Positions 3,472 through 50,282 of a stretch of DNA of 64,000 nucleotides are shown here, piece after piece. Origin of the DNA: Tetradesmus obliquus (taxonomy: Eukaryota; Chlorophyta; Chlorophyceae; Sphaeropleales; Scenedesmaceae); contig CP126202.1 in the NCBI GenBank assembly GCA_030272155.1, forward strand, positions 1,364,001 through 1,428,000, written 5' to 3'. A program made the translations under genes and the position numbers. The notes below the pieces were generated by a model, which did no database searches, was not told the origin of the DNA, and was given only the letters and a program-made list of their open reading frames with translations. Numbering within the stretch: position 1 is the first letter of the stretch; each line of letters opens with the position of its first letter.

Positions 3472-3527
<56 letters not shown>

Positions 3528-3612
3528 AGGGACACGTATGTGCACATCATGGAGCAGTACTCCCCTCGCCACCTGGTTGGCTCTGGTGAGCAGCGGCATG
3601 ACCCATGACAGC

Positions 3613-3681
<69 letters not shown>

Positions 3682-3897
3682 AGGGACACCTACGTGCACA
3701 TCATGGAGCAGTACTCCCCTCGCCACCTGGTTGGCTCTGGTGAGCAGCGCAGCAGGCAGGGCTGGGACAGCTATGAAGATATCAACAGGCCAGTGAGCAG
3801 TGATGAGGTGCAGCAGCTGCGGCAGTATGCTCGCAGTATTGGGCTGTGGCGGTTTGAGGAGGCTCCTAGATATGAGGCTGGGGAGATGGCCGGCTAG
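1..3897 (+). CDS. Radical SAM protein, PflX/COG1313 type (5' end outside or unresolved)
   Basis: Exons read: up to 118, 594-684, 1172-1278, 1620-1844, 3154-3281, 3684-3897; all phases join. The first exon encodes a segment with PHFAEE; the second holds the [4Fe-4S]/SAM motif CNLRCVFC (CX3CX2C) followed by QNWDIS; the third has ELADWMMKLQ and HNINFVTPEH; the fourth has IPIIYNTSAYDG and DIYMPDFKFF; the fifth has GLLLRHLVMPG; the sixth has YVHIMEQYSP and the stop TAG. The order and motifs match the family of pyruvate formate-lyase activating enzyme-like radical SAM proteins (COG1313). The substrate is unknown for this family as far as I can say. The start lies left of the readable first exon, so the gene is partial. 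Several exons have degenerate extra copies in introns (see repeats). The family is clear; the exact role is not. Confidence 0.85.
130..552 (+). repeat. Extra copies of radical SAM exons 1 and 2 in intron
   Basis: The exon ending at 118 recurs at about 228-292 (still open, with a GTAGGG donor) and in decayed form at about 350-402. A damaged copy of the 5' part of the CNLRC exon lies at about 508-552, after a (CTG)n tract. Copies share sequence and splice-site position with the real exons. Confidence 0.75.
1050..1092 (+). repeat. Truncated upstream copy of radical SAM exon 3
   Basis: The segment repeats the acceptor TTCCCGCAG and the first 40 or so bases of the exon beginning at 1172, then diverges. 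A similar short copy of the exon-4 YNTSA region sits at about 1495-1530. Confidence 0.75.
1939..2335 (+). repeat. Two downstream copies of radical SAM exon 4
   Basis: The 3' part of the exon ending at 1844 is repeated at about 1939-2084, open and with the same GTGCGC donor, and at about 2179-2333, decayed by small indels. Flanking intron sequence (ACATAACATGTGTGCTGCTGGT) is repeated too, so the unit of about 240 bp spans the exon-intron border. Confidence 0.85.
2655..2960 (+). repeat. Three upstream copies of radical SAM exon 5 (acceptor plus 5' part)
   Basis: Copies of the 5' end of the exon at 3154 (coding GDLVFSPDGLAK) start at about 2660 and 2783, with a poor third near 2937. Each is preceded by a TTGCAG- or GTACAG-type acceptor. 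Confidence 0.75.
3007..3126. repeat. 24-bp minisatellite, five copies
   Basis: A GC-rich 24-bp unit starting GCTGACAAGCACATG is repeated at 3007, 3031, 3055, 3079 and 3103, the last with one substitution. It lies in the intron before radical SAM exon 5. Confidence 0.95.
3471..3682 (+). repeat. (CTG)n tracts flanking a duplicated last exon 5' part
   Basis: Two CTG runs (3471-3530 and 3611-3682) each end in CTGCAG, immediately followed by a copy of the last-exon start (3531 and 3684; GGACAC...). Only the second copy continues in frame to the stop, so 3531-3588 is an extra truncated copy of the 5' part of the exon. Confidence 0.9.
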
Positions 3898-6800
3898 GCC
3901 CAGCCTTGCAAATATTGCATGTGCATGCATTTGCCAGTGTTGTTTACCGTCCAGCACACGGCGTCATTGCAGGGGTAGCTGTGGCATTGTTTGTTTGTTT
4001 GATTTGCAGGCTGCGCTGAGCGCAGCAAGCAGGGCTGCGACAGCTGCAACGCAACGGACATGCGAGTGACCAGTGATGAGGTGTCGAGAGAGACTGCATC
4101 CAGCCGTCTGGTCCCTTTTTCCTGTAGCTCTACAGCGACTGTTTGCTCAGCAACTTCACTACCTTCAATGCCAAGTTACTAGCAGCAGCAGTTGGCGTCC
4201 AACTGCATATATCACTCAGCTCAGCTCACGAGACAGAGGTGCAGCAGCTGCGGCAGTATGCGCGCAGCATTTGGCTGTGGCGGTTTGAGGAGGCTCCTAG
4301 GTACGAAGCTGGGGAGATGGCTGACTGACGGCTTTTGTCAGTTGCATGTGTGACTTTTTGAATAGAGCTACTGCAAATATAAGGTCATGCATGTGCCCAA
4401 GCTTGGTGGCTCATGACAGGACACAATGCACGTCCGAATCTGGTCCCGCGCACTGGCGTGGACCAGGCTGCATTGAGTATCAATACCCAGTGATATCAGG
4501 CTGTAGAGCAAATGTTGCAAGCAGCGGTCATGTAACTACCGCCGTCGCAAAGCACTGGCATAAGCAGTGCTTATTGCTGTAGACGAGTGCATCTCACCAA
4601 GCAGTTCAGTTTTAAAATGTACTGATAACGGGTCAGCCGTACGGGTCAATGCTGCAATGCGCTAGCTGCCAACGTGTGCAGTAGTGGCAGGATCAACAGT
4701 ACTGCTAGCCCAGCCAGCACACTGCGCAAAGCCAGGCACTGGCATTGTGTATGGCCAGTGGCCAGAGACATCAGCAGAGCACATCATGTGCAACCAAGCA
4801 AACCGCAGCTGCAATCATACTCTGCTCCACACTTGATGCCTGCCTGGCAGTTTGTGCTGCACTCGGGTGATGAGAAAACAACACAGGGCCCTTCATAATG
4901 GAGAGAATGAAGCAGCTGCTGATACTGCACACCGTGCACTGTGCCACGGTCGTGGCTGGCCTGGCGGCAATGTAGCAGCCGCACACGGGAATCATGCATC
5001 TCGCAGTGTTATAAGTGCTGCCTGTAACCACGATGCAGAAGCGTACGCGCGCCACCCCGGGTGGTGCTGGCAGCAGCACTCAGCAGCTGTCCCGGTGCCT
5101 CCAACTCGTGGCAGCCAGGCCTCGTGCATATCCATGCGCTGCTTGTAGCCTTGATGCAGGAGCGAGTAACACCAAGAGAAGATCCTGGGGACTCAAACAC
5201 GTCACACAATGCAGCAGTGCTTGCAATGTTATCAATGCCAGAGATTCTGTTGGTAGCACTGCGCAGTGCTACACCCTTTGTGTAAGGCAGTTCCTCAACA
5301 CTAATAGCGTCACACAACAGCTGTGATACACATTTCTGCAATGATGCATCCTACAATCCACTCATGCCAAGTGTGTGCCGCTGCGGGCAGTAAGCCAAGT
5401 AATGCCCTGGCAGCAATGTGCCCAGGTATAAAGCACTCTAAAACCCTGAGCATATATGGTATATACCACACACCAGTCCCTCCCTTAGATGACAAGCATC
5501 CTGCCCACTGCAGCAGCTTTGCCGCAAAGGCTTCAGCTCCACACCGCATCTGCTGCAAATGCGTCAAAAGAGCTCCACCCCGCATCTGCTGCAAATGCGT
5601 CAAAAGAGCTCCACCCCGCATCTGCTGCAAATGCGTCAAAAGAGCTCCACCCCGCATCTGCTGCAAATGCGTCAAAAGAGCTGCCAGCTGTGCCTGCTGC
5701 CCATGTGCAGCCAGCCGCATGCCATGCTGACATGTATGCCCATGACGGCTAACAACTCTGCTCCCTCAAGGAACAACTGGCCTCAAAGGACCACTGGACC
5801 TGTAGGCTATGATGGGCGCATTGGCCACAAGTGTTTTATGTGGCACAGCCACACAATGCAGCGATGCAAAGAGAGTGCCTTTGTCAAGTCAACGGTTACA
5901 CAGCTGGCATCCTGCTAGTGACTCAGCTGCTACAGCGACACTGACTCGGCTGTTATGATAATGGTGACTCAGCAGCTGTAACAGCAATTCGGCCGTCATT
6001 AACACAACAACACAGCTGTTATGGCAACAGAATGAGCTGCTGTAATTAACATGCACATCCTGCTGTGACAGAAGTGAGTGATCTGGCATGACAAAAGGGC
6101 TCAGTTCTTACTATACTAGAGACAGCTGCAAGGAAGCAAACGTCAAAAACTGCAGTCCCAACATTCAACAAGTTTTGGTAGATGCGGCCACAACGTGTCA
6201 AGCCATATGGCTTGATTGCTAACATGCATGTCAAGCCAAGATGCAGCATCACTGTTTATGATGCTCAAAAATCAGCTCTCAACACAAGCATGCAAGCTGT
6301 TGCAAGCATGAAGATAGTCCAAAAGTTTGAAAATGATATAACATCAGCTGTCAAACCAGGGTTGAGCATGTTTTGGCGCTTTGGTGCCAAAAGCAGCGCA
6401 GCACTGCAGGCAGGTGACAGAAACACTAGTACTTCCTGATATAACAAGCAGCAACTGGCAAACATGGTGTCACCAGTGCTCATCAAGCGCACTGTAGTTG
6501 TTTTGGTTTTATGTTTGCTGCTGGTGAAGAAGCCCTTTGGCACACAGAACCTCAGACAGGGGTCTGTTGCAACTGGCATCATTGGTGCCACAGGGTGGAT
6601 CATAGCCATGCAGAAGCTCCTTGAGATGCTAAACTCAAAACCAAGAAGCCAGCCGTGAATACCAACCAGATCTCAACTTCAACAAACTAAGACTGCAGCG
6701 ATGTTGTGTGTGTACTATCATAGTATGATGGTGACAACAGGGCAACACACATTGCGTAGCATTGCATGCAAACAACATGCAGGCAGGGATAAGAAGTTGG

Positions 6801-17226: not shown

Positions 17227-19626
17227 CTACCACCCGCCAGCATAGCCAGTCATGCCGTTGTCATCGGTGTGGTACACTCCAGCAGCAGCAACAGCAGCGC
17301 TGCTCAGCTTCCCCTCCTCCCTGCTACTGCCAGCTACGTCCTTCTTGCTGACGCTTTTGGAAGCCAGCTGCGGCAGTAGCTGTTGGGAGCGCTGCATGCT
17401 GGATGAAGCAGCACTAGCCGCCGCATTGGCAGCAGCAGCAGCAGCAGCACCAGGCACCAGCAGCTTTCCCTGCCGGGCATATTCCTGGGAGCTGCGCCGC
17501 TCCGACCTGTCATTTGAGTTGGATCTCTGCACGATGCAGCAGGCAGCGGCACGAGCATAGAGCTGTCAGAACTGCTGAAGACGAACATACGTTAAATGCT
17601 TGCAGATGGTGCGTACATGTGGCGGCCAAAGTTGGGCATCGAAGTCACTGCCCGCCGCACAGACAGTACTTGAAATTGAGGTCCGTACATCTCTGGCTGT
17701 TATTCCGTCTGGCAGAACTGCACACCTGCAAGCAATGTATCCGAGGGTGCTGCAGCATGGCCAGGATGCTTGGTCGCTACCTTGTATCACGACATTGGAT
17801 CAAACCATTTGAGTTTACTGATCGCACCTGGAAACTACGAATCCAGGGGTGCTGCAGCATGGCCAGGATGCTTGGGCGCTTCTCTGGCCGCTGATAATCA
17901 CTCTACTCTCTGCTAGTCATTACTCAAGGTTCTGGTTAGGTTGTTTGCATTTGCAGCAACACGCACCTGGAAGCTGCGTATCCAGGGGTGCTGCAGCATA
18001 GCCAGTATGCTCGGCCGCTTCTCAGGCTGCTTGTGCAGCGCAGCAGCGATGAAGCTTGAGGCAGGCTCTGACATGCGGCTTGGGAAGGCTGGTGCAGCGC
18101 AGTGGATTGCTGCTTCGATGGCGCTGTCGCTTGCACCAGTTGCGGAGAAGGGAGCCCTGGCAGCAGCAGCAGCAGCAGCAGCAGAAGGTGTGCAGCTGTC
18201 AGGTTGGTGGTCATTGTTGTCTACAACGGACTAGGCATGCCACCAGCCCACCACCAGCTGCCCATCAGCTGCCCACCATCAGCCCACCAGCAGCACACCA
18301 GCCCACCACCAGCCCACCATCAGCCCAGCAGCACACCACCAGTCGCAAGCAGCCCACCTGCCCGTGAGCAGCCCATAGCTGACCAATCAACACCGCTAGC
18401 CCACCACCAGCACACCACCAGCACACCAGCGGCCCACAACCACCTGCCCGTGAGCAGCTCATAGCTCAGCACCCCCACAGCCCACGCATCCCCTTACTGG
18501 CTGTAGAACAGCTCCGCGCGGCCCCAGGCTGGCCCACCACCAGCTCACATCAGCACACGTTACTGTGGCACGTGACTGTTAGAGGACATGTGACCTACCT
18601 GCCCGTGAGCAGCTCATAGCTCACCACCCCCACAGCCCACGCATCCCCATACTGGCTGTAGAAGAGCTCCGGGCGGCCCCAGCTGGCCCACCACCAGCTC
18701 ACATCAGCACACGTTACTGTGACACATGATTGTGAGAAGACGTGCAACGTACCTGCCCGTCAGCAGCTCATAGCTCAGCACCCCCACAGCCCACACGTCA
18801 ACAGCCTGGCTGTAGAAGAGCTCTGGGCGGTCCTTGTTGTCCCCAGGCTGCCGCTTCAGCGGGCAGCGCAGCACCTCGGGCGCCATGTAGTCAAGCGTGC
18901 CTGCAAGTGCCAGCAATTGAAACAGCAGGTGACACGAGTGCTGTGGTCCACTAGATGATGCAAGTGTGGCACCTGGCTGGTGCTTCAGCGGGCAGCGCAG
19001 CACCTCAGGAGCAGCGTAGTCAAGCGTGCCTGCATGTGCCAGCGCAGGAAATATGGTGAACTTGAGTTCAACAGACTTTGTTCTTTTACAGCAGACTAGG
19101 CAGTGCACAGTCTGTCCAACTTGTGCGCAGCACCTTGAGCGCCATGAATCCAGCTGGCACGCTTGCAAGCCACAGCATGTTTAAAACCTGTCAAGGTCAG
19201 TACAGCACATTATTCAGCACAGAATTTGACAATCTGGCAGCGTGGCAGCAATTGCAAGCAGCACCTCAGCAGCCACACAGGGCAGCATGTGCTACAGCTC
19301 ACCAACTCGTGTTTCCGCTCGCTCCTCCCTGAGGTTCACTGCCAGGCCAAAACCACTGTCAAGGGCAAGCAAGAGCAACAGTCAACAGCATGCTGCTGCT
19401 GCAGATCACCAACTCGTGTGACCGCTCGCTCCTCCCTCAGGTTTACAGCCAGGCCAAAACCCCTGTCAAGGGCAAGCAAGAGCAACAGTTAACAGCATGC
19501 TGCTGCTGCAACTCACCAACTCGTGTGACCGCTCGCTCCTCCCTCAAGTTTACTGCCAGCCCGAAATCTGCCACCTTGAGCACCATGCCGCTGCTGAACA
19601 GCACGTTCTCAGGCTTGATGTCCCTG

Positions 19627-19669
<43 letters not shown>

Positions 19670-19761
19670 GTGCACAGCCAAGAGCACGGCATACAGCACA
19701 GGCCACCTTGAGCACCATGCCGCTGCTGCACAGCACGTTCTCAGGCTTGATGTCCCTGCGT

Positions 19762-19850
<89 letters not shown>

Positions 19851-22800
19851 CTCATATGGCAGTGAGTATGACACAGCCAGCTCTTCTTTCTGCACAGCAT
19901 TGTCATGCCGTACCGCAGAGATGCAGTCGCAGAGAGACGGCAGAGAGAGATGAACAGTGTGCCTGTTTGTGTGCGCAGTGCGCGAAGACTACGTATACAC
20001 TAGGACCCATGTGCAGTGTGATGCAGACTAGATAACACGCAGCTGTGTGCAATGCCCACAAAGTGCAAGCAGCCACGCATGACGCTGTGCAATGCAGCTA
20101 TCCGTGCAAAGCAGTCACTGACGCATGCACCTGTGCGCAATGCCTGCGGTGTGCAGGTAGTGCACTGCCCTGTGGAAGTGCTGCGGCGCAATGCACACAT
20201 CCACTAATGCACACATCCACCAAGGGCAGTACCCCAAAGCAGTGTATTGAATTGCACTCGCACCTGTGCGCAATGCCCGCAGTATGCAGGTAGTGCACTG
20301 CCCGCAGGAAAGGCTGCAACCCAATGGACACAGCTGTGCCACAGCAGCAGTACACAACCCACTGCACACCCCGCTGTGTGCAACATGACCCACGCGCACG
20401 CACCTGTGCGCAATGCCCGCGGTGTGCAGGTACTGCACCGCTCTCAGAAAGGGCTGCAGCACACTGCACACACCCACGTACGCACTACCGGTAGTGCGGC
20501 AAAGCAATGAAAGGGCTGCAGCACACTGCACATACCCACGTATGCACTACTGGTAGTGCGGCAAAGCAATGATTGCAACCGAACCTCAAAACACGCACCT
20601 GTGCGCAATGCCCGCGGTGTGCAGGTACTGCACCGCTCTCAGAAAGGGCTGCAGCACACTGCACACACCCACGTACGCACTACCGGTAGTGCGGCAAAGC
20701 AATGAAAGGGCTGCAGCACACTGCACATACCCACGTATGCACTACTGGTAGTGCGGCAAAGCAATGATTGCAACCGAACCTCAAAACACGCAACTGTGCG
20801 CAATGCCTGCGGTGTGCAGGTAGTGTATCGCCCTGAGAACGGCTGCAGCACACTGCACAACCACGGCTTCGCACAACACCGGCTTTTCCACCCAACCGCA
20901 TGAGGCAGCCCAATACATACGCACCTGTGTGCAATGCCTGCGGTGTGCAGGTAGTGTATCGCCCGTGCGCAATGCCACGCGCTGTTCTAGTCCTCAGCTA
21001 CAACTTTGCGTTACACAAACCAGTGCACCCGCACCTGTGCGCAATGCCCGCGGTGTGCAGGTAGTGTATCGCCCGCAGGAAGGGCTGCAGCACCAGTGAC
21101 ACCGTCACGCGCTCCGTCAGGCGTCCACTGTTGGCATCCATGAAGGACCACAGGTCGCCGCCACCAGCAAACTCCTGCATATCACGTGCAGTCAGTTGGT
21201 TAGTTGGTTACTCACGACGCACGTGCTGGTAAGGTCACGATGTGGCGTGGAATGACCTGCTGGTGTGACTAGTTTAGTAATTTGCTGGCGACAAAGCAGC
21301 CCAGCATGACTGCTGCATGTCGACCGGCAACCGGGTGCGCTGCAAGTGCATCCTATTCACAGCAGGTGACATGGTACATGTTCCACCACTTCCGTAAGTG
21401 ACACCATAATGGCACCGGCTGCCATGTGCGCACCTGCAGCATCACCACGTTGCCAGCCTCCTGACATGCTGTGGCAAACAACGTGACACATTATCTCAGA
21501 AGTAACACATCCTACATAGCACTGGTCACTGTGCCCGCACCTGCACCATGACCACATTGCCGGCTTCCTGGAATGCTGCGTAGAGTGAGATAATGTTCTC
21601 GTGGTCCACCCAAGCATTTTACATGCTGCAGGATATATACCCCAAGCTGCTTATGTACAAAAGTATTTAGATATAGCACATAACTTGCCACTATGTCACG
21701 TAGCCCAATAAACAGCACAGCAGAGTGTTTGCTGTGCCCGCACCTGCACCATCACCACGTTGCCAGCCTCCTGGAATGCCGCATACAGTGAGATGATGTT
21801 CTCGTGGTCAAGCCCTATGTGCAGCCGCACCTGCAGCAGTACATACATCAGCAGCAAAGCATGAGAGTTGAGCTCAGCTGAACAGCACAGCCTACACATT
21901 TATCGCAGTTGGTGCGGTGTACCGCAGAAGCTGGCTGGTGTGGTCCAGCCCCGTGTGCAGCGGCACCTGCAGCAGCAGCAGCAGCAGTGCGGCACACCCA
22001 TGAGTGTATCACAGCACTGGAGGTGGCAGCATTCAGCGGTGGCAATTTGGGAATGGATTTGCGTATCAAGACAGCAGCTGCTGCACAGGTTTCGAGACGC
22101 TTGCGGGTGCATCGTCGACCGTGCTTCGGCAAACTTGCCCAAGGATGCCGACTCCTGCCACAATACATGCGCACAGTGCACTACGGCATCTCGTGCTTGC
22201 TTGCCGACTTTGTACCAGGCAGGGCACTGTGAAGTACCAGGCAGGGCACTGTGAAGTACCAGGCAGGGCACTGTGAAGAACAAACCCTGAACCACAGATC
22301 AAATGCAGCCCCACCTCTCTCGCCACTTGGTGGCTACTGATGCTGTTGAGCTTGCTCATGTGGTACAGCTTGAGCGCGACTGTGGAGCCTGATACGCGGT
22401 CAAAAGCCTGCAGCAAGAGCACAACACAACGCATCAGATCATGTGTTGCACGGTGTAGGAGCCAGGACAGCGAAATCCGCAGTTTCAGAGCATGCTGTGA
22501 GAACTTCAGCTGTGGATTGCTGTGTGAAATTCAGCTGTGAAGCAGTTAAAAGTGCCGAAATTCCGCAGACCTGCACAAGCAGCTCAGGCTGCGGCAGCAT
22601 GCAATTCCCAGCTGAGTTGACGTCACCTGGTAGCGTTTTAGAGACAGGGCTATAACGTAGGCCAGCAGCTGGGTAGCTGTTACCACCAGAGCCGTCACCC
22701 TTGCAGAAGGTCGAGGCGCAGCCTTCGCGCAGCTTCTTTGGTAATGCGACAGCAGCTAAACTTGCACACTACGGCTGAATGTCAGCAAGAAACATTTCAA

Positions 22801-38915: not shown

Positions 38916-38956
<41 letters not shown>

Positions 38957-41900
38957 GAAGCAGGCACCTCTGCGTTCTCGCTCCTGCTGGCAGCACGCCA
39001 CACACAGTTCATGGCTCCTTTGCACGGCCGTGGCACATCCCAGTGGCAGTGCAGGTGTGTGCCCCAATGTGTAGTTGCATGCTAGGTTACATGTTTATAC
39101 TGTTGCGGTGGCCTGCTGCTCTACTGTGTGCAGGTGAACCAGTTCACCATCAACTTCGGCCCGCAGCATCCTGCAGCGCACGGCGTGCTGCGGCTGGTGC
39201 TGGAGATGAAAGGTGAGCGCAGCAGGGCTGTAGTTATGCAGGCAGTTTGCTTAGGGTTGACATGATCAACCAAGGTTGGCTGCATGCCTACACCAACATG
39301 CAGCACCCCGCAGCTCATGGGGTGCTGCGGCTGGTGCTGGAGATGAAAGGTGAGTGCAGCAGGGCTGTAGTTTTGCAGGCAGTTTGCATAGGGTTGACAT
39401 GATTGACCAAGGTTGGCTGCATGCATACACCAGCCCGCAGCACCCCGCAGCTCATGGGGTGCTGCGGCTGGTGCTGGAGATGAAAGGTGAGTGCAGCAGG
39501 GCTGTAGTTTTGCAGGCAGTTTGCATAGGGTTGACATGATTGACCAAGGTTGGCTGCATGCATACACCAGCCCGCAGCATCCTGCAGCTCATGGGGTGCT
39601 GCGGCTGGTGCTGGAGATGAAAGGTGAGTGCAGCAGGCTCTAGGTTTGTAGGCTGTTCATACAGGGTTGACCGGTGTTGACCAAGGTTGGCTGCATGCTT
39701 ACTCCAGCCTGCAGCTGCCAGCAGGGCACTGCGTGCTGTGGTTGGTGCTGGAGGTGAATGGTGGGTGGGGTAGCGCGTGCTGCAGTGCAGTCGACTGTCA
39801 GGATGTTGACCGACGTTGACCACAGTTTGACCAGCAGCTGTCACCCTTCATGCACTGATGTCACCGCTTGCGGTGCTGCCTTTTATGAACCTGCTTTAAG
39901 CCGTCTTTCAACGGGTTTGCAAGCTGCACTTCAGCCGCACTCCAGCTGGCCTCAACACAATCTGCTCTGTGCTGCTGCTGTGTTTGTGGTTTGCAGGAGA
40001 GCTGGTGGAGCGCGCGGACCCCCACATCGGGCTGCTGCACCGCGGCACTGAGAAGCTGATTGAGTACAAGACGTACCTGCAGGTGGGTTGACATCACTTG
40101 CAGGATGCATCTGGGTGAAGATGAAGTGTTATAGCGTGCAAGACATATCTGCAGGTGAAGCCTGTGGCAGCAGTGCGCTACGGCATGGTGCTGCCTGTCC
40201 ACCTACAGGTTTATCCATTTCAACAGCTGACGTTCACATGTTGTTACAAATGTGTGACTTTGTAATTGTGGCTTGCAGGGCCTGCCCTATTTTGACCGCC
40301 TGGACTACGTGTCCATGATGTGCATGGAGCACTCCTACGTGCTGCCTCTGTCCATCACCAGCTGACTTTCGAATAATCAACATGTCATTTTGTCATTTTG
40401 ACTTGCAGGGCCTGCCCTACTTTGACCGCCTGGACTATGTGTCCATGATGTGCATGGAGCACTCATACGTGCTGGCCATTGAGCAGCTGTGCAACGTGAC
40501 AGTGCCAGCGCGCGCGCAGTACATCCGCGTGCTGTTCTCTGAGATCACGCGCATCATGAACCACCTGCTGGCGGTCACGTGCCACGCCATGGACGTGGGG
40601 GCCCTCACTCCCTTCCTGTGGGCCTTCGAGGTGCGCAGCGGCTTTTATGCAATGAATGCGTTATGCAGCTGCTTGCAAGCTTTGTTGAGGTGCAGCTCAT
40701 GTCACCTTGAGGGCCTGGGAGCTGCGCGACAGCCTGTTGGTTCATGTGGTGCTGGTGTGGGAGATTTGTACATCCGCGTGCTGTTCTCAACATTACGCGC
40801 ATCACACGAATCACCTGTTGCCGTTCACCTTAATGCTTTGTCCCTGCAGGAGCGCGAGAAGCTGATGGAGTTCTACGAGCGCGTGTCGGGTGCCCGCATG
40901 CACGCGGCCTACTTCAGGCCCGGCGGCGTCTCCCAGGACCTGCCCATCGGCCTGCTCAAGGACATCTACGACTTTGCGCGCCAGGTGTGTTTGCTTTTCA
41001 GAACTCAACTTTGCGCGCCAGGTGTGTCTGCTTTCCCACCAAGAAATGGGAGTGGTGCACGCCAACGGGCGTTCTGTTGTGTTGAAAGCACCCGCGATAA
41101 TAACAACAACAACAACCGAGTGTGTGATGCGTGCCGCGTGCTGTCTTTGTTGAGCTTGAGAAGCAGCTGCGCAGCACCCGGCAGTGCATCTGTACATATT
41201 TAGACGCTTTGCTCAAAGCCCATCTCGCCCAACAAATTTTTCAAACGGTTTATCTGCTTATGCGCGCAGTTCTCCAGCCGCATGGATGAGCTGGAGGAGC
41301 TGCTGAGCGACAACCGCGTGTGGAAGGAGCGCACCGTGGGCATCGGGCTCATCAACGCACAGCAGGCCTGGGACTGGGGCTGCAGGTGAGCCAGATGGCG
41401 CACAGCAGGGTTTGGGACTTAGTATGCCTGTCGCAGAGTAGGCTGGGGATAAGGGGATCAGGTGAGGGGGCATCGGCCTCATCAACGCGCAGCAGGCCTG
41501 GGACTGGGGCTGCAGGTGAGGGCAGCGCCCGTGCAGGGGACTGACTGTGTATCACAACAGACACGTTTGTCTCATCGTGGGGCCGTGTTGGGCTCATCAA
41601 CGCGCAGCAGGCCTGGGACTGGGGCTGCAGGTGAGCCGCCGTCGTGTACAACGCGTGGTAGTCATGTAATCAAAGTTTGTAATCAAAGTTTCACCAGATT
41701 TTTTGTGAGGGGCATGGGGCACCTCATTCCTGGGACTGGGGCTGCCAAAGAGGACATTCGGGACGCAGCAGGCCTAGGACACAGATGAACTGGACACAGC
41801 CTGGAAGCAGGAGAGTGGTGCAGCAGGTCGTTTTGCCCACAATCCACTGTCCTGCTGCTGTGACCTGTGCTTGGCACTTGTGTTTCTGCTCGTTTTCTTG

Positions 41901-43900
41901 CCGTCATTTTCTCTGCTGCTGCAGCGGCCCCATCCTGCGTGCATCCGGCATCGACTGGGACCTGCGCAAGGCGCAGCCGTATGATGCGTACGGCAAGATG
42001 GAGTTCAACGTGCCCGTGGCGGGACACGGCGACTGCTACGACCGCTACCTGGTGAGGCTGGAACCTAAGTATTGGTTTTGTGTTATGTATTGTTTTGGCT
42101 GCGGGTGTTGTTGCTGAGCGTGCACGCCACATTGCGGCAGAGTTGAAAATGGATTTCAACGTGCCCGTGGCGGGCCACGGCGACTGCTACGGCCGCTACC
42201 TGGTGAGACTGAAACCCTTCGTTTCGGCCGCTGCCTGTGTTGATAGTGCTACACATGGCCAGCTGGTGCGACTGCTATGTATGGTGTGCCCTAGCAGGCA
42301 CACATGTGGTGTTGCTTGCGAGAGTTGCGCATAGCAAATCACTGCTGTGATTTAGGCTGCTGCAGTTCGCCTGCAGCATGCTGATGTTGATGCTGCTTCA
42401 CCGCTAAAACGGTGTTACATGCTGCGTCATGCTGCAGGTGCGCACGCACGAGATGCGTGAGAGCCTGCACATCATCACGTAGCTGTCCATTTGTCACTGC
42501 TGCCGGACTTTGAACATATTGTCATTGTGTTATTGTGTTATTTGTGTGCAGGTGCGCATGCACGAGATGCGTGAGAGCCTGCGCATCATCTTCCAGTGCC
42601 TCAACGAGATGCCTGAGGGGCCCTACAAGTCCATCGACGGCAAGGTGTCACCACCATCCAGGTGCGGATAAGAGGCTCGATGGGTTGTGTTAAGGTTCTG
42701 TTGTGAAGAAGCACACACCATTTACTGGTCAAGTTCACAAAGCAAAGGTGTCACAGCCATATAGTTGGGACGGGCGCTGCCGCTGCTGCTGCCCCAATCC
42801 TTGGAGGCAAGGCTTTCATTTAGCGCCCTGAGAGCTGCAGAACCAAGACGGCGGGCAAATTGTATATCTGGATTTGGCATGGGTCATGCAAATGATGTCT
42901 GGTGCGCCCTCCACTGGCCCATGCAGGTCCACCATAAAGCAGTCCATGGAGGCGCTCATCCACCACTTCAAGCTCTACTCTCCCTCAAGCACTGCTGCTT
43001 AACAAAGCTTTGCACATTATGTGATGTATGTTTGCAGGTCCACCATGAAGCAGTCCATGGAGGCGCTCATCCACCACTTCAAGCTCTACACTCTTTCAGG
43101 CACACTGCTGCTTACCAAAGCATTATAACGATTGAAAACCCTTTTGCCTTCGCAGGTCCACCATGAAGCAGTCCATGGAGGCGCTGATCCACCACTTCAA
43201 GCTCTACACTGAGGGCTTCCACGTGCCGCCAGGCGAGACCTACAAGGGCGTGGAAGCGCCCAAGGGAGAGTTTGGCGTGTACCTGGTCTCCAGGGGCGGC
43301 AACAGGCCCTACAGGTGAGGGTCTAACCGTGAGGGTTCAAAGTTTGAGTCAGGATTTGGGTCATGGTGCTCCCCGGAGAGACCTACAAGGGCGTTGAAGC
43401 GCCCAAGGGAGAGTTTGGCGTGTACCTGGTCTCCAGGGGCGGCAACAAGCCGTACAGGTGCGGCTGCGTGGTTGCCGCAGTTCTTGAACACTGTCTGCTA
43501 CATGCATGCCAGAGATCAGCCAGCGAGGATGTTGCCTGTAGAGGCGCACAAACATGTGCTTTGCTGCACTAATCTGGGCATACCTACAGTCACGGCCGTG
43601 TTGGCCAAGCACACCTCACTCACTGCTGCTGCCGTGCAGGTGCAAGATCCGCTCGCCCGGCTTTGCGCACCTGCAGACCACGGACTTCATGTGCAAGAAG
43701 TTCATGCTGGCTGACTTGTGCTGCTGCTGCCGCTGCTGCTGCTGCTCCTCCTGCTGCTGCTGCTGCGCAGGTGCAAGATCCGCTCACCCGGCTTTGCGCA
43801 CCTGCAGACCACGGACTTCATGTGCAAGAAGTTCATGCTGGCTGACGTGGTGACTGTGATTGGCACGCTGGACGTGGTGTTTGGAGAGATTGACAGGTAG
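38869..43900 (+). CDS. nad7: NADH:ubiquinone oxidoreductase 49-kDa subunit (Nad7), nuclear copy
   Basis: Ten exons: 38869-39054, 39134-39212, 39997-40082, 40409-40630, 40850-40984, 41270-41385, 41925-42051, 42552-42661, 43156-43314, 43771-43900; all phases fit, 449 aa. From exon 2 the match to the 49-kDa core subunit of complex I is end to end: [58 protein letters not shown]-type [63 protein letters not shown], and the C-terminal VVFGEIDR. It forms part of the quinone site in the matrix arm. Exon 1 (62 aa, Arg- and Ser-rich) is a possible mitochondrial presequence and the least certain part. Nearly every intron holds truncated exon copies. Confidence 0.9.
39164..39760 (+). repeat. 137-bp tandem array of nad7 exon 2 3' part plus donor
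   Basis: The end of exon 2 (AAAG before the donor at 39213) recurs with exact 137-bp spacing: 39209, 39346, 39483, 39620 and a decayed 39757. Each unit carries about 49 bp of exon, then the donor and intron sequence (CAGCAGGGCTGTAGTT). Confidence 0.95.
40279..40346 (+). repeat. Upstream copy of nad7 exon 4 5' part
   Basis: The acceptor and first 67 or so bases of the exon at 40409 are repeated, coding [20 protein letters not shown] decayed internal fragment of exon 4 lies at about 40766-40825, and a decayed exon 3 3' copy at about 40122-40154. Confidence 0.9.
41468..41745 (+). repeat. Downstream copies of nad7 exon 6 3' part
   Basis: The segment coding [13 protein letters not shown] plus the GTGAG donor recurs at 41468-41515 and 41590-41630; a 16-bp remnant lies near 41728-41743. 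Confidence 0.9.
42149..42202 (+). repeat. Downstream copy of nad7 exon 7 3' part
   Basis: This repeats the stretch coding [16 protein letters not shown] and its GTGAG donor from the exon ending at 42051. Confidence 0.9.
42438..42478 (+). repeat. Upstream copy of nad7 exon 8 5' part
   Basis: An acceptor CTGCAG is followed by about 41 bp matching the exon at 42552 with two changes, then a stop in frame. Confidence 0.85.
42927..43092 (+). repeat. Two upstream copies of nad7 exon 9 5' part
   Basis: Copies at 42927-42980 and 43038-43092 each have their own acceptor and code [17 protein letters not shown] (one with Met changed to Ile), then diverge. The full exon begins at 43156. Confidence 0.9.
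43374..43457 (+). repeat. Downstream copy of nad7 exon 9 3' part
   Basis: About 84 bp coding [20 protein letters not shown] and the following residues up to the donor at 43458 are repeated after the real exon. Confidence 0.9.
43640..43714 (+). repeat. Upstream copy of nad7 exon 10 5' part
   Basis: An acceptor GTGCAG is followed by about 75 bp nearly identical to the last exon (coding [20 protein letters not shown]). The real exon at 43771 follows a CTG-rich tract. A remnant of the gene end lies at about 43947-43987. Confidence 0.9.
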
Positions 43901-45220
43901 AGCAGCGGCAGCGGCGGCGGCGGCAGCAGCAGCGGGGCCGGCGTTGGCAGGCTGGATGTGGTGTTTGAGTGAAAAGTGACAGGTAGAGCCGCAGCAGCAG
44001 CAGCGGGGGCAGCACGCAGCAGCGGCGCTGGCGCCGGCCGCGGCAGGAATGTTGCTGCCATCGGCATGCTGGGCCCTGCAGCAGCAGCAGCAGCAGCTTG
44101 GGCTGCAGCCAAGTGGAGCAGCAGCTGCAGGTGTGACAGAAGTGGTGCTGTGGGTTGTGCTGTGAAGCTGCCACAGCGCGTGCAGCAGCGGCTGCACGAG
44201 TGGCAGCGGCTCATTGCCGATGCAGTAGCAAAACTGTTCAGGTGTCCTCACAGCCTTCACAGTGACAGTAGGGATGGGACAATGTGATACAAATCATGCC
44301 TGCTGCGATGGCTATGGTTGGCTAGCAGCAGCTCACAGTGTGCGAGCCTCCCTGCTAGTTGACATAGTCTCCTGTGCTGTAGGCGGATGTTGGTGGTGCT
44401 TCTGCACACGAGCTTAACAAGTTGACAACTGCGGTGTTCTGGCATTGATTGGGAAGGGTGGATGCATGGGTTGTAGCAGTGCGCAGTGAGGAGGTGTTGG
44501 TGTGATGCCTGTTGGTGCTGATTTTTACAAGCACTGTTGTGCCACCTAACGATGCGTGCTTGTAAGTGATCACATCAGCACTGTTGCACAGCCATTTGTG
44601 GAGGTGCTGTGTGTGTTGGGGCAGTACTATGCGACGTTTGCTATGTGGCCTGAGGTTGCTGCAAGTCGTAGAAGCTACACGCGCCGCGAAGAGCCGGCGG
44701 CAGTGCAGCAGCATGCAAGAGACACGGATGCATGGATCAGCATCATGTTTTACACTGTAACCAGAGTACTATCCAAAGACCATCAAATGCCTTTTGAGTA
44801 CTGCGTTGTGTTATACATGCATACTTTTTCCCTGCAACTCTCTATGTTGTCCACCACTCTGCAAGGCAGTTTGAGGCCAGGTGGCCCAGCGATATGCAAT
44901 GGATCTGCCACATTGCGCTATGCGCAAGTGTGCCTATGTTGCACTGCAGATCAGCTTTTAGTATAGCCCTCCTGTATAGCGTGCAACCCGCTGGAGTGAC
45001 AGATACACTTGCTCACTCCTCCTAGGGTTTCAAACCCTGGTTTTGGCAGGCAACATCTGGCACCTTATGCGCTTGTAGCCCTTTGATGATGGACCTAGTT
45101 ACAGTAAAGTGTATGTGCTTGCTTCAAATAAAGTACGTCGCTGCCTGCACGTTCGGAAGCCCCCGATCGCTGCCACGCTTGGTTACAGTTGCTTCAAAAG
45201 CAGACTGCCGATTTCGCTGC
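43901..45220. other. Intergenic region, no gene recognised
   Basis: Besides the nad7 end remnant, this holds GGC/GCA-rich low complexity (43905-44100) and short open frames without motifs. The sorbitol dehydrogenase promoter should lie near 45000-45200. Confidence 0.5.
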
Positions 45221-47628
45221 ATGGCTGACCCTGACAGCAACACCGCAGCAGTGCTGTACGGCATCAATGACTTGCGTGTGCATCAGTGGGAGCTTCCGAA
45301 GGAGCTTGCAGCAGGCCATGTCAGGGTGCAGATGAGCAATGTGGGCATCTGCGGCTCTGATGTGCACTACCTGCAGCACGGCAGGTGGGAAAGGGCGTAA
45401 CAGCGACTCGATGATGGCTGATTAGGCACACAGCTGGCCGCAACCGGCGCATATGCTGTAGCAGCAGCAGGCAGTACAGCAGCAGCAGCAGCAATGCATG
45501 GAGGATGCAGCTCTAGCGCTTCCAGGCTTTTCATTGCTGTTGTTGCATATCAGCTGAAGTCCATGTTCAATCACGCGGCTTGCCACGGTCACCGAGGCAT
45601 GTTGCTAGCCCTGCTTACGCCTGGCAGCTTTTCAGTGCTCCCTGCCCACTGCAGCCCTTTCATGCAGTCCTATTTACAATGGCTCACCGCAGAACGTTCA
45701 TACATGCAGATCACATCAAACATCTACAGTCCAAAATCATGTCAAATCAAGCGGTCTGCCACTAGGCTAGCCTAGTTGGTTACGCCTGGCAGCGTCTGAG
45801 CTCCCTGCGCACTGCCACCCTTTCATGCAGTCCTTTCACAATGGCTGACCGCAGCACGCTTGCACATCTACATGCACGTATCATCATGGGCATCACGGTG
45901 CTTGCAGGATCGGCGACTTTGTGGTGGATGCACCAATGGTGATTGGGCATGAGTCAAGCGGCGTTGTGGCTGCAGTGGGGCCTGGCGTCACCAGGCTGGC
46001 TGTGGGTGACAGGGTTGCGCTGGAGCCTGGTGCACCCTGCTGGCACTGCAAGGCAGCAAGGGAAGGCAGGTGCGGCCGCATACACACAATAAGCTGTTGT
46101 GCGCTGTCTTTCAAGTAGATGGTTTAGCTGTGGGTGTGGGTGACAGGGTTGCAATTGAGCCTGGTGCACCCTGCTGGCACTGCAAGGCGGCGAGGGAGGG
46201 CAGGTGCGCAAAAGGATGCGTATCTACTTTCTTCGTTGTGTAGTGTGTGCATCTGTGGTTGTGGTGACAGGGTTGCGCTGGAGCCTGGCGCACCCTGCTG
46301 GCACTGCAAAGCAGCAAGAGAGGGCAGGTAAGGGAGTAGGAATGCATCTGCTGGTGTTACATGTAGTGTGTGTGGTGTGGCTGTGGGTGACAGGGTTGCG
46401 CTGGAGCCTGGTGCGCCTTGCTTGCACTGCAAGGCGGCACGGGAGGGCAGGTAACGGAGTAGGAATGCATCTGCTGGCATCATATAAAGTGTGTGTATCT
46501 GTGGTTGTGGGTGGCAGGGTTGCTCTGAGGCCTGGCGCACCCTGCTGGCACTGCAAGGCAGCAAGAGAGGGCAGGTCAGGGAGAAGAAACGCATTTGCTG
46601 GCATCATATGCAGAGTGTGTATCTGTGGTTGTGGGTGGCAGGGTTGCGCTGGAGCCTGGGGCCCCCTGCTGGCACTGCAAGGCAGCACGGGAGGGCGCCG
46701 CATACACACGATAAGCTGTTGCACGCTGTGTTGTTGTAGATTGTGTGTGGTGTGGCTGTGGGTGGCAGGTTGCGCTGGAGCCTGGCGCACCCTGCTGGCA
46801 CTGCAAGGCAGCAAGAGAGGGCAGGTGAGGGATTGGAGACATATTTGCTGGCGTTATAGGTAGTGAGTGTGGTGTGGTTGTGGGTGACAGGGTTGCGCTG
46901 GAGCCTGGCGCGCCCTGCTGGCACTGCAAGGCAGCAAGAGAGGGCAGGTAAGGGAAAAGAAACACATCTGCCGGCATATGTAGTGTGTGTATCTGTGGCT
47001 GTGGGTGACAGGGTTGCGCTGGAGCCTGGCGCGCCCTGCTGGCACTGCAAGGCGGCAAGAGAGGGCAGGTAAGGGAAAAGAAACACATCTGCCGGCATAT
47101 GTAGTGTGTGTATCTGTGGCTGTGGGTGACAGGGTTGCGCTGGAGCCTGGTGCACCCTGCTGGCACTGCAAGGCAGCAAGAGAGGGCAGGTAAGGGAAAA
47201 GAAACACATCTGCCGGCATATGTAGTGTGTGTATCTGTGGCTGTGGGTGACAGGGTTGCGCTGGAGCCTGGTGCACCCTGCTGGCACTGCAAGGCAGCAA
47301 GAGAGGGCAGGTGCGGAAGCAAATGTCCTCTGCTGGAGCGTTATTTGTAGTGCGTACCTGCAGCTGTGGGTGACAGGGTTGTTCTGGTGCGCCCTGCTGG
47401 CACTGCAAGGTGGCAACGGAGGTTAGGTGCGCAGGCAGACACATGTCCGCTCTCAGTATATAGTGAAGTTGCGGCTGCGCGTGACCGGGCTGCATCTTCA
47501 TTCAGTAAGCTATTTCCAAATGCTGCTGCTGCGGCAGTTGTGCAGGTACAACCTTGACCCTGACATCCAATTCTTTGCCAACTCTCCAGTGCACGGCAGC
47601 CTATCAGTCAGCCAGTTGGTGCAAAACC

Positions 47629-47662
<34 letters not shown>

Positions 47663-48076
47663 AACAGGTACAACCTTGACCCTGATATCCAATTCTTTGC
47701 CACACCCCCAGTGCACGGCAGCCTGGCTTCATTTGTGGACCACCCAGCAGAGCTGTGTTACAAGCTGCCAGCAAGCGTCACTTTGGAAGAGGGGGCGATG
47801 TGTGAGCCGCTGTCAGTGGGAGTACACGCATGCAGGTGAGACGCCACCAGGCGCGTGCGGCCGGTAGCATATTGCTGCTGCGCTTTTGGGATGGGTGCCT
47901 TCTGCGGTTGCTGTCGAATGTCCACCTTGCACACCTCCAGTGAAAGCAGCAGAGTAGGTGCACCTACTCTGCTGCTGTGAAGCGGAACTTGTCACTCATT
48001 GGGACTCGGTCTTGCATGAGGTCGATTTTGATAGAGTCGTCTTGTCCTTTTGCGTGACTTCTGCTGGTGGTGGTGG

Positions 48077-48130
<54 letters not shown>

Positions 48131-50282
48131 AGGCGTGCGCAGGTGCAGCCGGGCAAGTCCGTTGCTGTGCTGGGTGCCGGCCCCATTGGGCTGGTGGTGC
48201 TGATGTGTGCACAGGCCTTTGGCGCAGACCAAGTGGTTATCACAGGTGGGCCTGATCAGCCCGCCAGGCACATGCAGCGCTTGCAGGAAGCCAACAGAGT
48301 TTGCAGGAAACACTGCAGGACTTGCAGGAAGAGGCCTTTGGTGCTGATCAAGTGGTCTGAACAGGCGGGTGTGGTTGGCAGCATGTTGCTTTGTCAGGGG
48401 CACATGCACCACTTGCAGGAAACACCGCAGTCTTCTACAAGACTAACTGATTTCAGGCAGAACATGAGCCCCCCTACAACACTGCGCTCATTCAATAGCC
48501 CACAGTATATCTTCACCTGGCTCGCTGTAACCACCTTCCTTCTTAGATTCCTTTTTGTGCTTGTTGCATGCCAGATGTGCGGCAGAGCTGCCTCGACTTT
48601 GCTGCAAAACAATACGCAGCAGACCTGCATATGACTGATTGCCACTCCCTTCTGTCCTTCTTCTTTCTTTCCGCTTGTCAGATGTGCGGCAGAGCTGCCT
48701 CGACTTTGCTGCGCAGCACTACGCAGCCACCACCCTACTCACCACACCCCAGCAAACCCCATCAGACCTTGCGCAGCAGCTGCAGCACACGCTCGCTGCA
48801 GCAGCAGCCGGCGCAGACCCAACACCAGCAGCAGCAACAGCAGCAGGCGTGCAGCCCGACATAGTGATTGACTGTGTGGGAGTGCAGCAGACGCTGGAGG
48901 CTGCTGTGCGTGCTGTTGCACCTGGAGGGAAGATTGTGCTGGTGGGGATGGGCAGTGAGCAGCTGCAGCTGCCTGCTACACTGCTGACGTGCAAGGAGGT
49001 GGATCTGCTGGGAAGCTTCAGGTGCGGTCAAGCTGCTTGTTGTTTGGTGAAGGCAGATACATCATGTGCTGGTTGCTTGCCGAGTAGTTGTGTGTGTGCT
49101 GCAATCTGAATGTGAGAACGCTGCTGTTCAGTTGTCTGCAAGTGCTTGTGCGGCAGGCCGGGTTGTTGTTGCTGTCGCACCTGGAGGCAAGATTGTGCTG
49201 GGGGGGATGGGCAGTGAGCAGCTGCAGCTGCCTGCTATGCTGCTGACGTGCAAGGAGGTGGATCTGCTGGGGAGCTTCAGGTGCGGTTGCTGTGTTGCTC
49301 GCTCAACATGTGCTTCATGTGTTCATGCGTGCGTGGTGGACCTGCTAGGAAGCTTCAGGTGGGGCTGCTTGTTGCTAGGTGTACCTGATTGGTCACGCGC
49401 TTGCTTCATGCATGTTGTGTATCAGCCCGAGTATGCGCAAGGAGGTGGACCTGCTGGGAAGCTTCAGGTGCGGTCAAGCTGCTTGTTGTTTGGTGTAGCT
49501 GGATGAATCATGTGCTGGTTGCGCATTAGGCAATTATGTGCATGCTGCTGTTTGAATGTGAGAACGCTGCTGTTCAGTTGTCTGCAAGTGCTTGTGCGGC
49601 AGGCCGGGTGGTTTTTGATGCTGTAGCACCTGGAGGCAAGATTGTGCTAGTAGGGATGGGCAGTGAGCAGCTGCAGCTGCATGCTACGCTGCTGACATGC
49701 AAGGAGGTGGACCTGCTGGGAAGCTTCAGGTGCGGTGAAGCTGCCTGTTGTTTGGTGTATCTGTTTGGTCATGTGCTGCACTGGATCTTTTGAAGCATGG
49801 AGGCTGTTCATTAAGGATTCGCCCATGCTGCTTCTGAAACGAAGTGCTGTTCAGTGTTGTGCAAGTGCTTGTAGTCGGCAGCTGAAGATGCCAAGTGGCA
49901 GCCAGTGTGCCATTTGCCTCGCTGGCAACCATTCCTTAAATATCCATATTCTATCATTGCTGCTGATGCTACTGCCGCTGTGGCACTCCCCACCCTTTCC
50001 ACATGCTTTTGCATGCTTCCCACCATTATCCCATGCCTTCTTCATGCTTCTTGCAGGTACTGCAACACCTACCCCCTTTGCATCAGCCTCATCGCATCGA
50101 AGCGAGTACATGTGGCGCCAATGATCACACATCGCTTCCCTTTTAGCGCAGCTGGGGTGGCTGAAGGCTTTGACACAGCAGCACGGGCAGCGCAGACAGG
50201 AGCAATAAAGGTCATGTTTGACCTGCAGCAGCAGCAGCAGCAGCAGCAGCAGGAAGAGGAGGAGGAGGTCAGAGAACAGTAG
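45221..50282 (+). CDS. SDH: Sorbitol (polyol) dehydrogenase, zinc MDR family
   Basis: Exons 45221-45384, 45908-46069, 47668-47835, 48133-48245, 48682-49021 and 50057-50282 join in phase; 390 aa. It should oxidise sorbitol or a related polyol to the ketose with NAD in the cytosol. GICGSDVHY gives the catalytic Zn Cys, GHESSGVV the Zn His-Glu, and [16 protein letters not shown] the next ligand region. [18 protein letters not shown] is the Rossmann loop, and [36 protein letters not shown] and [10 protein letters not shown] match animal and plant sorbitol dehydrogenases along the length. The structural-zinc loop has only CWHC, as in forms that lack that zinc. The tail is poly-Gln/Glu. ATG 45221 is the family start. 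Intron 2 holds a striking exon-copy array. TGTAA at 50499-50503 may be the poly(A) signal. Confidence 0.92.
46147..47426 (+). repeat. Eleven-copy array of a 57-nt phase-symmetric exon fragment of SDH exon 2
   Basis: Copies lie at 46147-46203, 46271-46327, 46394-46450, 46518-46574, 46642-46698, 46769-46824, 46891-46947, 47012-47068, 47133-47189, 47254-47310 and 47377-47426. Nine are exactly 57 nt. Each starts after ACAG or GCAG, as at the matching point inside exon 2, and most end GGCAG before GTAAGG or GTGCGG. Each 57-nt copy is open and codes a version of [19 protein letters not shown] (19 aa). Fault lines: 46642 copy has no GT donor, 46769 copy is 56 nt, the last is shortened. Spacing is 121-127 bp and exactly 121 bp for the youngest-looking units. 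Confidence 0.95.
47546..47620 (+). repeat. Upstream copy of SDH exon 3 5' part
   Basis: Acceptor TGTGCAG is followed by about 70 bp matching the exon at 47668 (coding [11 protein letters not shown]...SPVHGSL), then the copy ends. A CTG run lies between copy and real exon. Confidence 0.9.
48070..48131 (+). repeat. (CTG)n tract abutting SDH exon 4 acceptor
   Basis: A run of GTGGTG then CTG triplets ends CTGCTGCAG directly before exon 4 at 48133. A decayed copy of the exon 4 end lies at about 48325-48360. Confidence 0.9.
48575..48614 (+). repeat. Upstream copy of SDH exon 5 5' part
   Basis: An acceptor GCCAG is followed by about 37 bp identical to the start of exon 5 at 48682 (coding [10 protein letters not shown]). 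Confidence 0.9.
49171..49729 (+). repeat. Four downstream copies of SDH exon 5 3' part
   Basis: Copies end at donors after 49280, 49358, 49467 and 49729. The first and last are about 110 bp and code [17 protein letters not shown]...[10 protein letters not shown]; the middle two keep only about 25-28 bp. Flanking intron sequence around the first and last copies is repeated too. Confidence 0.9.

Follow-up and report, generated by a model that had tools for sequence, protein, structure and literature searches.

Tandem copies of an exon end in a sorbitol dehydrogenase intron of Tetradesmus obliquus carry fewer amino-acid changes than unselected copies would

Internal gene duplication in eukaryotes, in which exonic segments are duplicated locally within a gene, was reportedly described by Gao and Lynch in 2009; by comparison, the genome considered here holds about one family of local direct duplications per 2 kb, including multi-copy arrays at exon edges. 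Tandem exon duplication of the DSCAM1 type, with mutually exclusive or cassette exons (PMC9013439), resembles the sorbitol dehydrogenase (SDH) locus described in this work in that tandem exon-like units lie in one intron with their amino-acid identity kept. However, the SDH copies comprise only the 3′ part of the exon, the native acceptor is uncopied, and an internal AGG codon would have to serve as the acceptor. The system of PMC3443670 likewise involves a duplicated piece with AG/GT across an exon–intron boundary (a slash marks the splice junction throughout), the copy of which is absorbed in an intron, but the SDH duplications enlarge an existing intron rather than forming a new one, number 11 copies, and keep a coding-like constraint. 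Repair-derived direct tandem duplications, from 2016 work as cited in PMC7464560, are a possible origin of the SDH array. We found no report of such arrays in Scenedesmaceae in an open-licence literature library; the main text of PMC7590803 makes no mention of intron, exon, tandem or alternative splicing, and the available part of PMC7955037 holds nothing relevant to such arrays. What is new here is that local direct duplications fill the genome and that the SDH copies are not drifting freely.

The array lies in the window, by which we mean the whole 64,000-nucleotide stretch of Tetradesmus obliquus DNA that was analysed, positions 1364001–1428000 of its contig, and its host is a single-copy SDH gene (exon map in Table 1; canonical splice from 46069 to 47668). 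The protein encoded in the window is 99% identical to P0001, a 388-residue T. obliquus protein, and because the two differ by two substitutions, one indel and the length of a poly-Q tract, P0001 is probably from another strain or assembly. P0001 shows near full-length homology to solved sorbitol dehydrogenases (3qe3, E 5e-98, residues 6–368; 1pl6, E 4e-95), and the enzyme thus belongs to this branch of the medium-chain dehydrogenases/reductases. When P0001 was compared with the whole genome (104.66 Mb, 17 contigs), all 19 matches among the best candidates scored were at the SDH locus, and a paralogue or second locus as the source of the variants was rejected on this basis. The read-through frame of P0123, from a related species, suggests an intron inside CWHC/AAREGR and none before YNLD, so that this loop would be interrupted at another point. 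The SDH gene model P0125 of Parachlorella kessleri contains doubled segments (GRIADFVVREPMV twice, and DIxGSFRYCNT twice) at the positions of the exon boundaries of the window gene, a doubling that suggests exon-edge duplications in another green alga.

Intron 2 of SDH contains 11 tandem copies (c1–c11) of the tail of exon 2 together with its 5′ splice site, the parent tail being c0, which ends at 46069. Tandem Repeats Finder (TRF) reports the array at 46128–47312, with a period of 121, 9.6 copies, a score of 1424, and 83% matches; c1 lies 134 nt downstream of c0, and later copies are 116–126 nt apart. The core is 57 nt long in nine of the 11 copies (c1–c5 and c7–c10), 56 nt in c6, and 50 nt in c11. 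All nine 57-nt cores are open; AG and GT are both retained in eight of them, c1–c4 and c7–c10, for which in-phase 57-nt AG sites were found. The donor reads GGCAG/GT in nine of 11 copies and TTAG/GT in c11, and is lost in c5. These observations bear out the eleven-copy array of the original prediction, as well as its claim that the AG of the copies lies inside coding sequence in the parent, where it is part of an AGG (Arg) codon of exon 2. Since AG/G and AG/GT share a codon phase in the parent, faithful copies are phase-symmetric and open; thus, the further claim that nine copies are phase 2-2 and open is true of all nine, but their common phase is one inherited coincidence and not nine independent facts.

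Table 1. Coordinates of the SDH exons and introns, and of the exon-end copies, in the window.
Feature	Position	Strand	Observations
SDH exon 1 (start codon 45221)	45221..45384	+	Match to P0001; donor AG/GTGGGA
SDH exon 2 (162 nt, phase 2-2), parent exon whose tail was copied	45908..46069	+	Acceptor TTGCAG/GATC, donor GGCAG/GTGCGG
SDH intron 2, 1598 nt, contains entire array	46070..47667	+	P0001 continuous across intron
c1	46147..46203	+	57 nt, AG and GT kept, L>I
c2	46271..46327	+	57 nt, AG and GT kept, amino acids as in parent
c3	46394..46450	+	57 nt, AG and GT kept, W>L
c4	46518..46574	+	57 nt, AG and GT kept, E>R
c5	46642..46698	+	57-nt core, donor GT lost; spacer like parent's intron start
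c6	46769..46824	+	56 nt, one G missing beside AG, GT kept
c7	46891..46947	+	57 nt, AG and GT kept
c8	47012..47068	+	57 nt, AG and GT kept
c9	47133..47189	+	57 nt, AG and GT kept
c10	47254..47310	+	57 nt, AG and GT kept
c11	47377..47426	+	50 nt, 7-nt deletion, several amino-acid changes; decaying copy
Exon-head copy inside intron 2	47546..47602	+	First ~57 nt of exon 3 and acceptor AG
SDH exon 3	47668..47835	+	Acceptor CAACAG/GTAC
SDH exon 4	48133..48245	+	
SDH exon 5	48682..49021	+	
SDH intron 5	49022..50056	+	Further exon 5 tail copies (49165–49280, 49330–49358, 49439–49467, 49620–49729)
SDH exon 6, stop included	50057..50282	+	

The near-identity of units at a 121-bp period was likewise confirmed, with 97% identity at 121-nt spacing in 46873–47312, and growth by tandem duplication with a recent expansion of 121-nt units is supported. 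Sorted by eye, the spacers of c0 and c5 correspond to the parent's intron start, those of c2, c3, c4 and c6–c9 form a second type, and those of c1, c10 and c11 differ. The spacers of c7–c9 are identical, a situation in which assemblers can miscount, but c1–c6, c10 and c11 each have changes or spacers of their own, and we consider a unit count inflated by misassembly to be very improbable. With a TRF period of 121, the locus has the head-to-tail layout of an intronic minisatellite, the units of which span tens to about 200 nt. A search of a plasmid collection gave no match, and among 845 candidates obtained with the array's own open frame (46204–46860) as the query, none reached E ≤ 1e-3.

The SDH array can be placed in a genome-wide context by self-comparison of 264 kb (the window and 20 stretches of 10 kb), which gave 281 local direct HSPs in 128 families and 7 inverted HSPs. 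The smallest period per family has quartiles of 112/128/160 nt (median 128), and many families span splice sites. Dinucleotide-shuffled 10-kb pieces subjected to the same self-comparison yielded 0 local direct repeats, and chance is therefore excluded as their origin. Within SDH, exons 4 and 5 have also had their tails copied, and exons 3 and 5 their heads. Exon-edge copies are likewise found in two genes that we take from their motifs to be NDUFS2-like (38950–44000) and PFL-activating-enzyme-like (1600–3900), and in exons that we take to be kinase-like (17700–21900, minus strand). At 3472–3749, we also observed an almost perfect duplication of an entire short exon, including its two splice sites and a (GCT)n acceptor tract; the exon measures about 56 nt, a length not divisible by 3, and inclusion of both copies would shift the frame.

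In the 54-nt codon block of c0–c10, from which c11 was left out because of its deletion, there are 14 synonymous (S) and 4 nonsynonymous (N) unique changes, corresponding to a binomial p between 2e-6 and 6e-4 if the sequence is neutral, depending on the mutation model, and of 0.0026 at the 57.5% N expected when the copy is neutral and its parent fully constrained. Pairwise means over all 55 pairs are 0.28 for pS and 0.02 for pN. In seven copies picked by eye for their common spacer type (c2, c3, c4 and c6–c9, the frame-shifted c6 among them), variants fall on 3 of 41 N sites, 8 of 13 S sites, and 16 of 28 spacer sites (Fisher p 1e-5 for N against spacer, and p 1 for S against spacer). Codon models of the ten copies alone are worse by 11.6 (GY, with kappa fixed as well) and 14.1 (MG) lnL when omega is set to 1, although exchange between units violates the tree that these models assume. 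The deficit is smaller in other subsets: singleton changes alone give S 8 and N 4 (p 0.0095 to 0.081), and inclusion of c11 and the edge codons gives S 16 and N 11 (p 3e-4 at 73% N). Gene conversion among unselected copies was simulated for a single lineage, without population effects, allowing parent-to-copy, copy-to-copy and copy-to-parent conversion at 11 settings; of the 1650 resulting states, 266 carried 13–23 changes, and none of these 266 reached an N share of 4/18, on which grounds this explanation was rejected.

These counts show that the SDH copies carry fewer amino-acid changes than unselected copies would, which rules against free drift, and the array does not behave as a minisatellite the units of which evolve without codon structure. 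The corresponding alternative is that the array is an inert passenger, a functionless intronic minisatellite that is always spliced out, with the low N count being due to chance, a small sample, or an unmodelled mutational bias. Such duplications are indeed pervasive in this genome, the acceptors of the copies are mostly unremarkable, and the frames of relatives lack the tail array (both discussed below), while the more conservative p value, the count with c11 and the edge codons, and a pooled count over 16 groups that fits neutral copies would all sit comfortably with it. Nevertheless, it would have to accommodate N variation approximately eightfold under that of the spacers with S equal to it, the likelihood loss at omega = 1, the failure of simulated unselected copies, and a bias in the same direction among 20 further tail copies, and we therefore regard it as unlikely.

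These 20 tail copies, all outside the SDH exon 2 array and counted over their aligned extent only, carry S 65 and N 35, where ~57% N is expected; with one copy per array, the counts are S 28 and N 15 (p 0.0023). The set omits the SDH exon 2 array, head copies, SDH exon 4, the copy at 20404 (which has the same counts as 20599), those at 17710 and 2178 (no alignable codons), and KIN_17, KIN_21 and L019_5, which had earlier been picked by their synonymous excess. Untrimmed, 16 curated groups (16 of 17 aligned groups, with the C-terminal NDUFS2-like group omitted) give S 90 and N 90, a balance near that expected if the copies are neutral and their parents constrained. A six-frame scan gave p ≤ 0.01 in 12 and p ≤ 0.05 in 23 of 114 families, some of which are possibly repeats in ordinary coding exons. 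An N/S of 0.27 over 59 families is biased low by the choice of segments and frames by codon usage, and the same choice applies to the S 141 and N 123 obtained for the 51 non-window families.

Among individual arrays, the kinase-like tails at 17823–18031 and 21529–21809 (minus strand) show 8 synonymous and no other differences, with a further, more decayed or shorter copy after each. The kinase-like catalytic-loop exon tail at 20043–21035 (minus strand) comprises a presumed parent and seven copies, with RA[IV][HQ]YLHTAGIAH in seven of the eight units, a donor GT in six of the eight, and spacers that are mostly unalignable. The NDUFS2-like exon tail (39136–39767) has four tail copies, the first three of which show only synonymous differences from the parent in the aligned part, whereas the last is decayed; in the SDH, NDUFS2-like and kinase-like arrays, the most distal copies are decayed. 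Taken together, constraint beyond SDH exon 2 is partly general, with a trend weaker than in SDH. Because an in-phase AG immediately 5′ of the conserved block is absent from copy 20264 of the catalytic-loop set, and also from copies 19410 and 21541, cassette translation cannot be the general cause of this constraint.

This bears directly on the main rival, which is also how the copies were originally read, namely that the eight intact copies, or some of them, are cassette exons, included in a fraction of transcripts at 19 residues each and kept by selection on the protein. What stands of this reading is that eight of the 11 copies are open, phase-symmetric, and retain AG and GT, that their cores evolve in a coding-like manner, with the low N and spacer-like S that are the usual signature of a translated exon, and that the frame-broken distal c11 carries several amino-acid changes; it explains the SDH locus as well as replacement of the exon end (see below) does. 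As a speculation, two units in a row would give CxxC...CxxC where the enzyme has one CxxC. The splice sites are less favorable to it. While the donors of the copies resemble real donors (GTAAGG, GTGCGG, GTGAGG and similar), the unit lacks the exon's own 3′ splice site, as the exon 2 acceptor (45906–45907) is absent and only the internal AG is available. On a matrix built from 14 real acceptors only, the AG sites of the copies score −8.6 to 8.1, compared with −2.2 to 19.9 for real sites (leave-one-out) and a median of −3.8 and 95th percentile of 5.7 for 141 other intronic AGs; that is, nine of 11 copies fall below the 88th percentile of these decoys and one at the 88th, with only c2, at the 97th, exceeding the 95th. 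Cassette use would further imply introns of 64–67 nt between copies and of 77 nt ahead of c1, whereas SDH's own introns are 297–1598 nt long.

We note that long (CTG)n-type tracts lie directly 5′ of 3′ splice sites at 3614–3681, 19630–19668, 43719–43766, 47632–47662 and 48061–48130, and are present at five of the 14 acceptors of the scoring set; these tracts may stand in for a polypyrimidine tract.

At the protein level, the T. obliquus gene model P0001, the record of which differs slightly from the window, contains no array copies. When 7998 candidates were scored against a query of four successive units, there were 13 hits, three at full coverage, and each of the 13 holds a single unit. The point at which the additional residues would enter the protein also lies inside a stretch that aligns without a gap to 3qe3, and the intron 2 of relatives is without tail copies. 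Finally, a milder shortage of amino-acid changes is found in other arrays, including copies without a usable in-phase acceptor, where a cassette is impossible, and thus cassette use is not needed to account for low N. Inclusion of the copies as cassettes therefore appears rather unlikely to us.

A different explanation for the same pattern is that the copies came by unequal exchange from diverged functional alleles, in a hybrid or very diverse population, and were thus born with their synonymous differences, their decay being yet to come. Such an origin could mimic both replacement and cassette use, as it would yield a low N and a high S along with diverged spacers, regardless of the acceptor, and it would fit the patch-like differences, such as the three synonymous differences between c8 and c9 despite identical spacers, and the five synonymous changes within 18 nt in the NDUFS2-like tail. 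However, SDH would have to have had several different haplotypes at a pS of nearly 0.3, the few differences between P0001 and the window suggest modest divergence, and there is no second locus among the best candidates scored in the P0001 genome search. We consider this origin improbable.

We instead favor the reading that the array is normally skipped, and that its copies are kept near right by recombinational replacement of the real exon end, to which we assign a probability of roughly 0.45. The array arose when a ~120-nt piece across the exon 2/intron 2 boundary (exon tail, 5′ splice site and intron start) was repeatedly duplicated in tandem, as one instance of a duplication process running genome-wide; this origin, its genomic context and the deficit of amino-acid changes in SDH are shown by the sequence data. 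The spliceosome would normally pair the first donor (46069) with the exon 3 acceptor (47668), so that the copies are removed with the intron. Skipping by default is favored because P0001 is without copies and intron 2 of the relatives P0121 and P0122 is without tail copies: their read-through frames hold 72 and 81 codons between the end of exon 2 and the start of exon 3. P0122 does have an exon 3 head duplicate, and from these frames, the tail array looks lineage-specific and the duplication process shared.

Because repeats recombine, contraction or conversion would occasionally install the tail and donor of a copy as the real exon end, and lineages in which a copy has a nonfunctional donor or an incorrect amino acid would lose progeny at the rate of replacement, as a form of second-order selection. 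The rate required can be estimated from the standard fixation formula. By this formula, we computed that a 2*Ne*r of about 4 cuts amino-acid changes to about 8% of neutral; assuming Ne in the millions, this would be reached with r between 1e-7 and 1e-6 per generation. Replacement would account for constrained codons and donors alongside free spacers and synonymous sites, as well as for constraint in copies without an acceptor, and is favored on this basis, although the event itself is something that we infer. Several observations speak against it: the drop in N changes toward the splice site that replacement would favor was not seen in the groups compared, several of which are misregistered (the SDH exon 4 tail was set aside on that account, as were the PFL-like head set and most other head copies); in the PFL-like exon-head set, amino-acid changes are most numerous in the copy closest to the real exon, contrary to an effect of distance; c5 is free of amino-acid changes despite the loss of its donor; singleton changes alone number only S 8 and N 4; and the untrimmed groups come near what neutral copies with constrained parents would show.

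More broadly, it is plausible, although we hold this still more tentatively, that exon-end copies in introns are reservoirs under selection at the amino-acid level, whether through recombination swaps or through cassette splicing. If so, genome-wide duplication would create intron sequence that evolves in a coding-like manner beside many exon ends. If intronic exon-end duplicates are under protein-level selection, an intron would carry coding constraint without translation, and gene finding based on dN/dS would misread such copies as exons; if splicing instead includes the copies, as many as eight cassettes of 19 residues would be available from a single intron of a core enzyme. The genome of this alga is a natural laboratory for intron growth, exon birth, and the bypass of successive good donors by the spliceosome.
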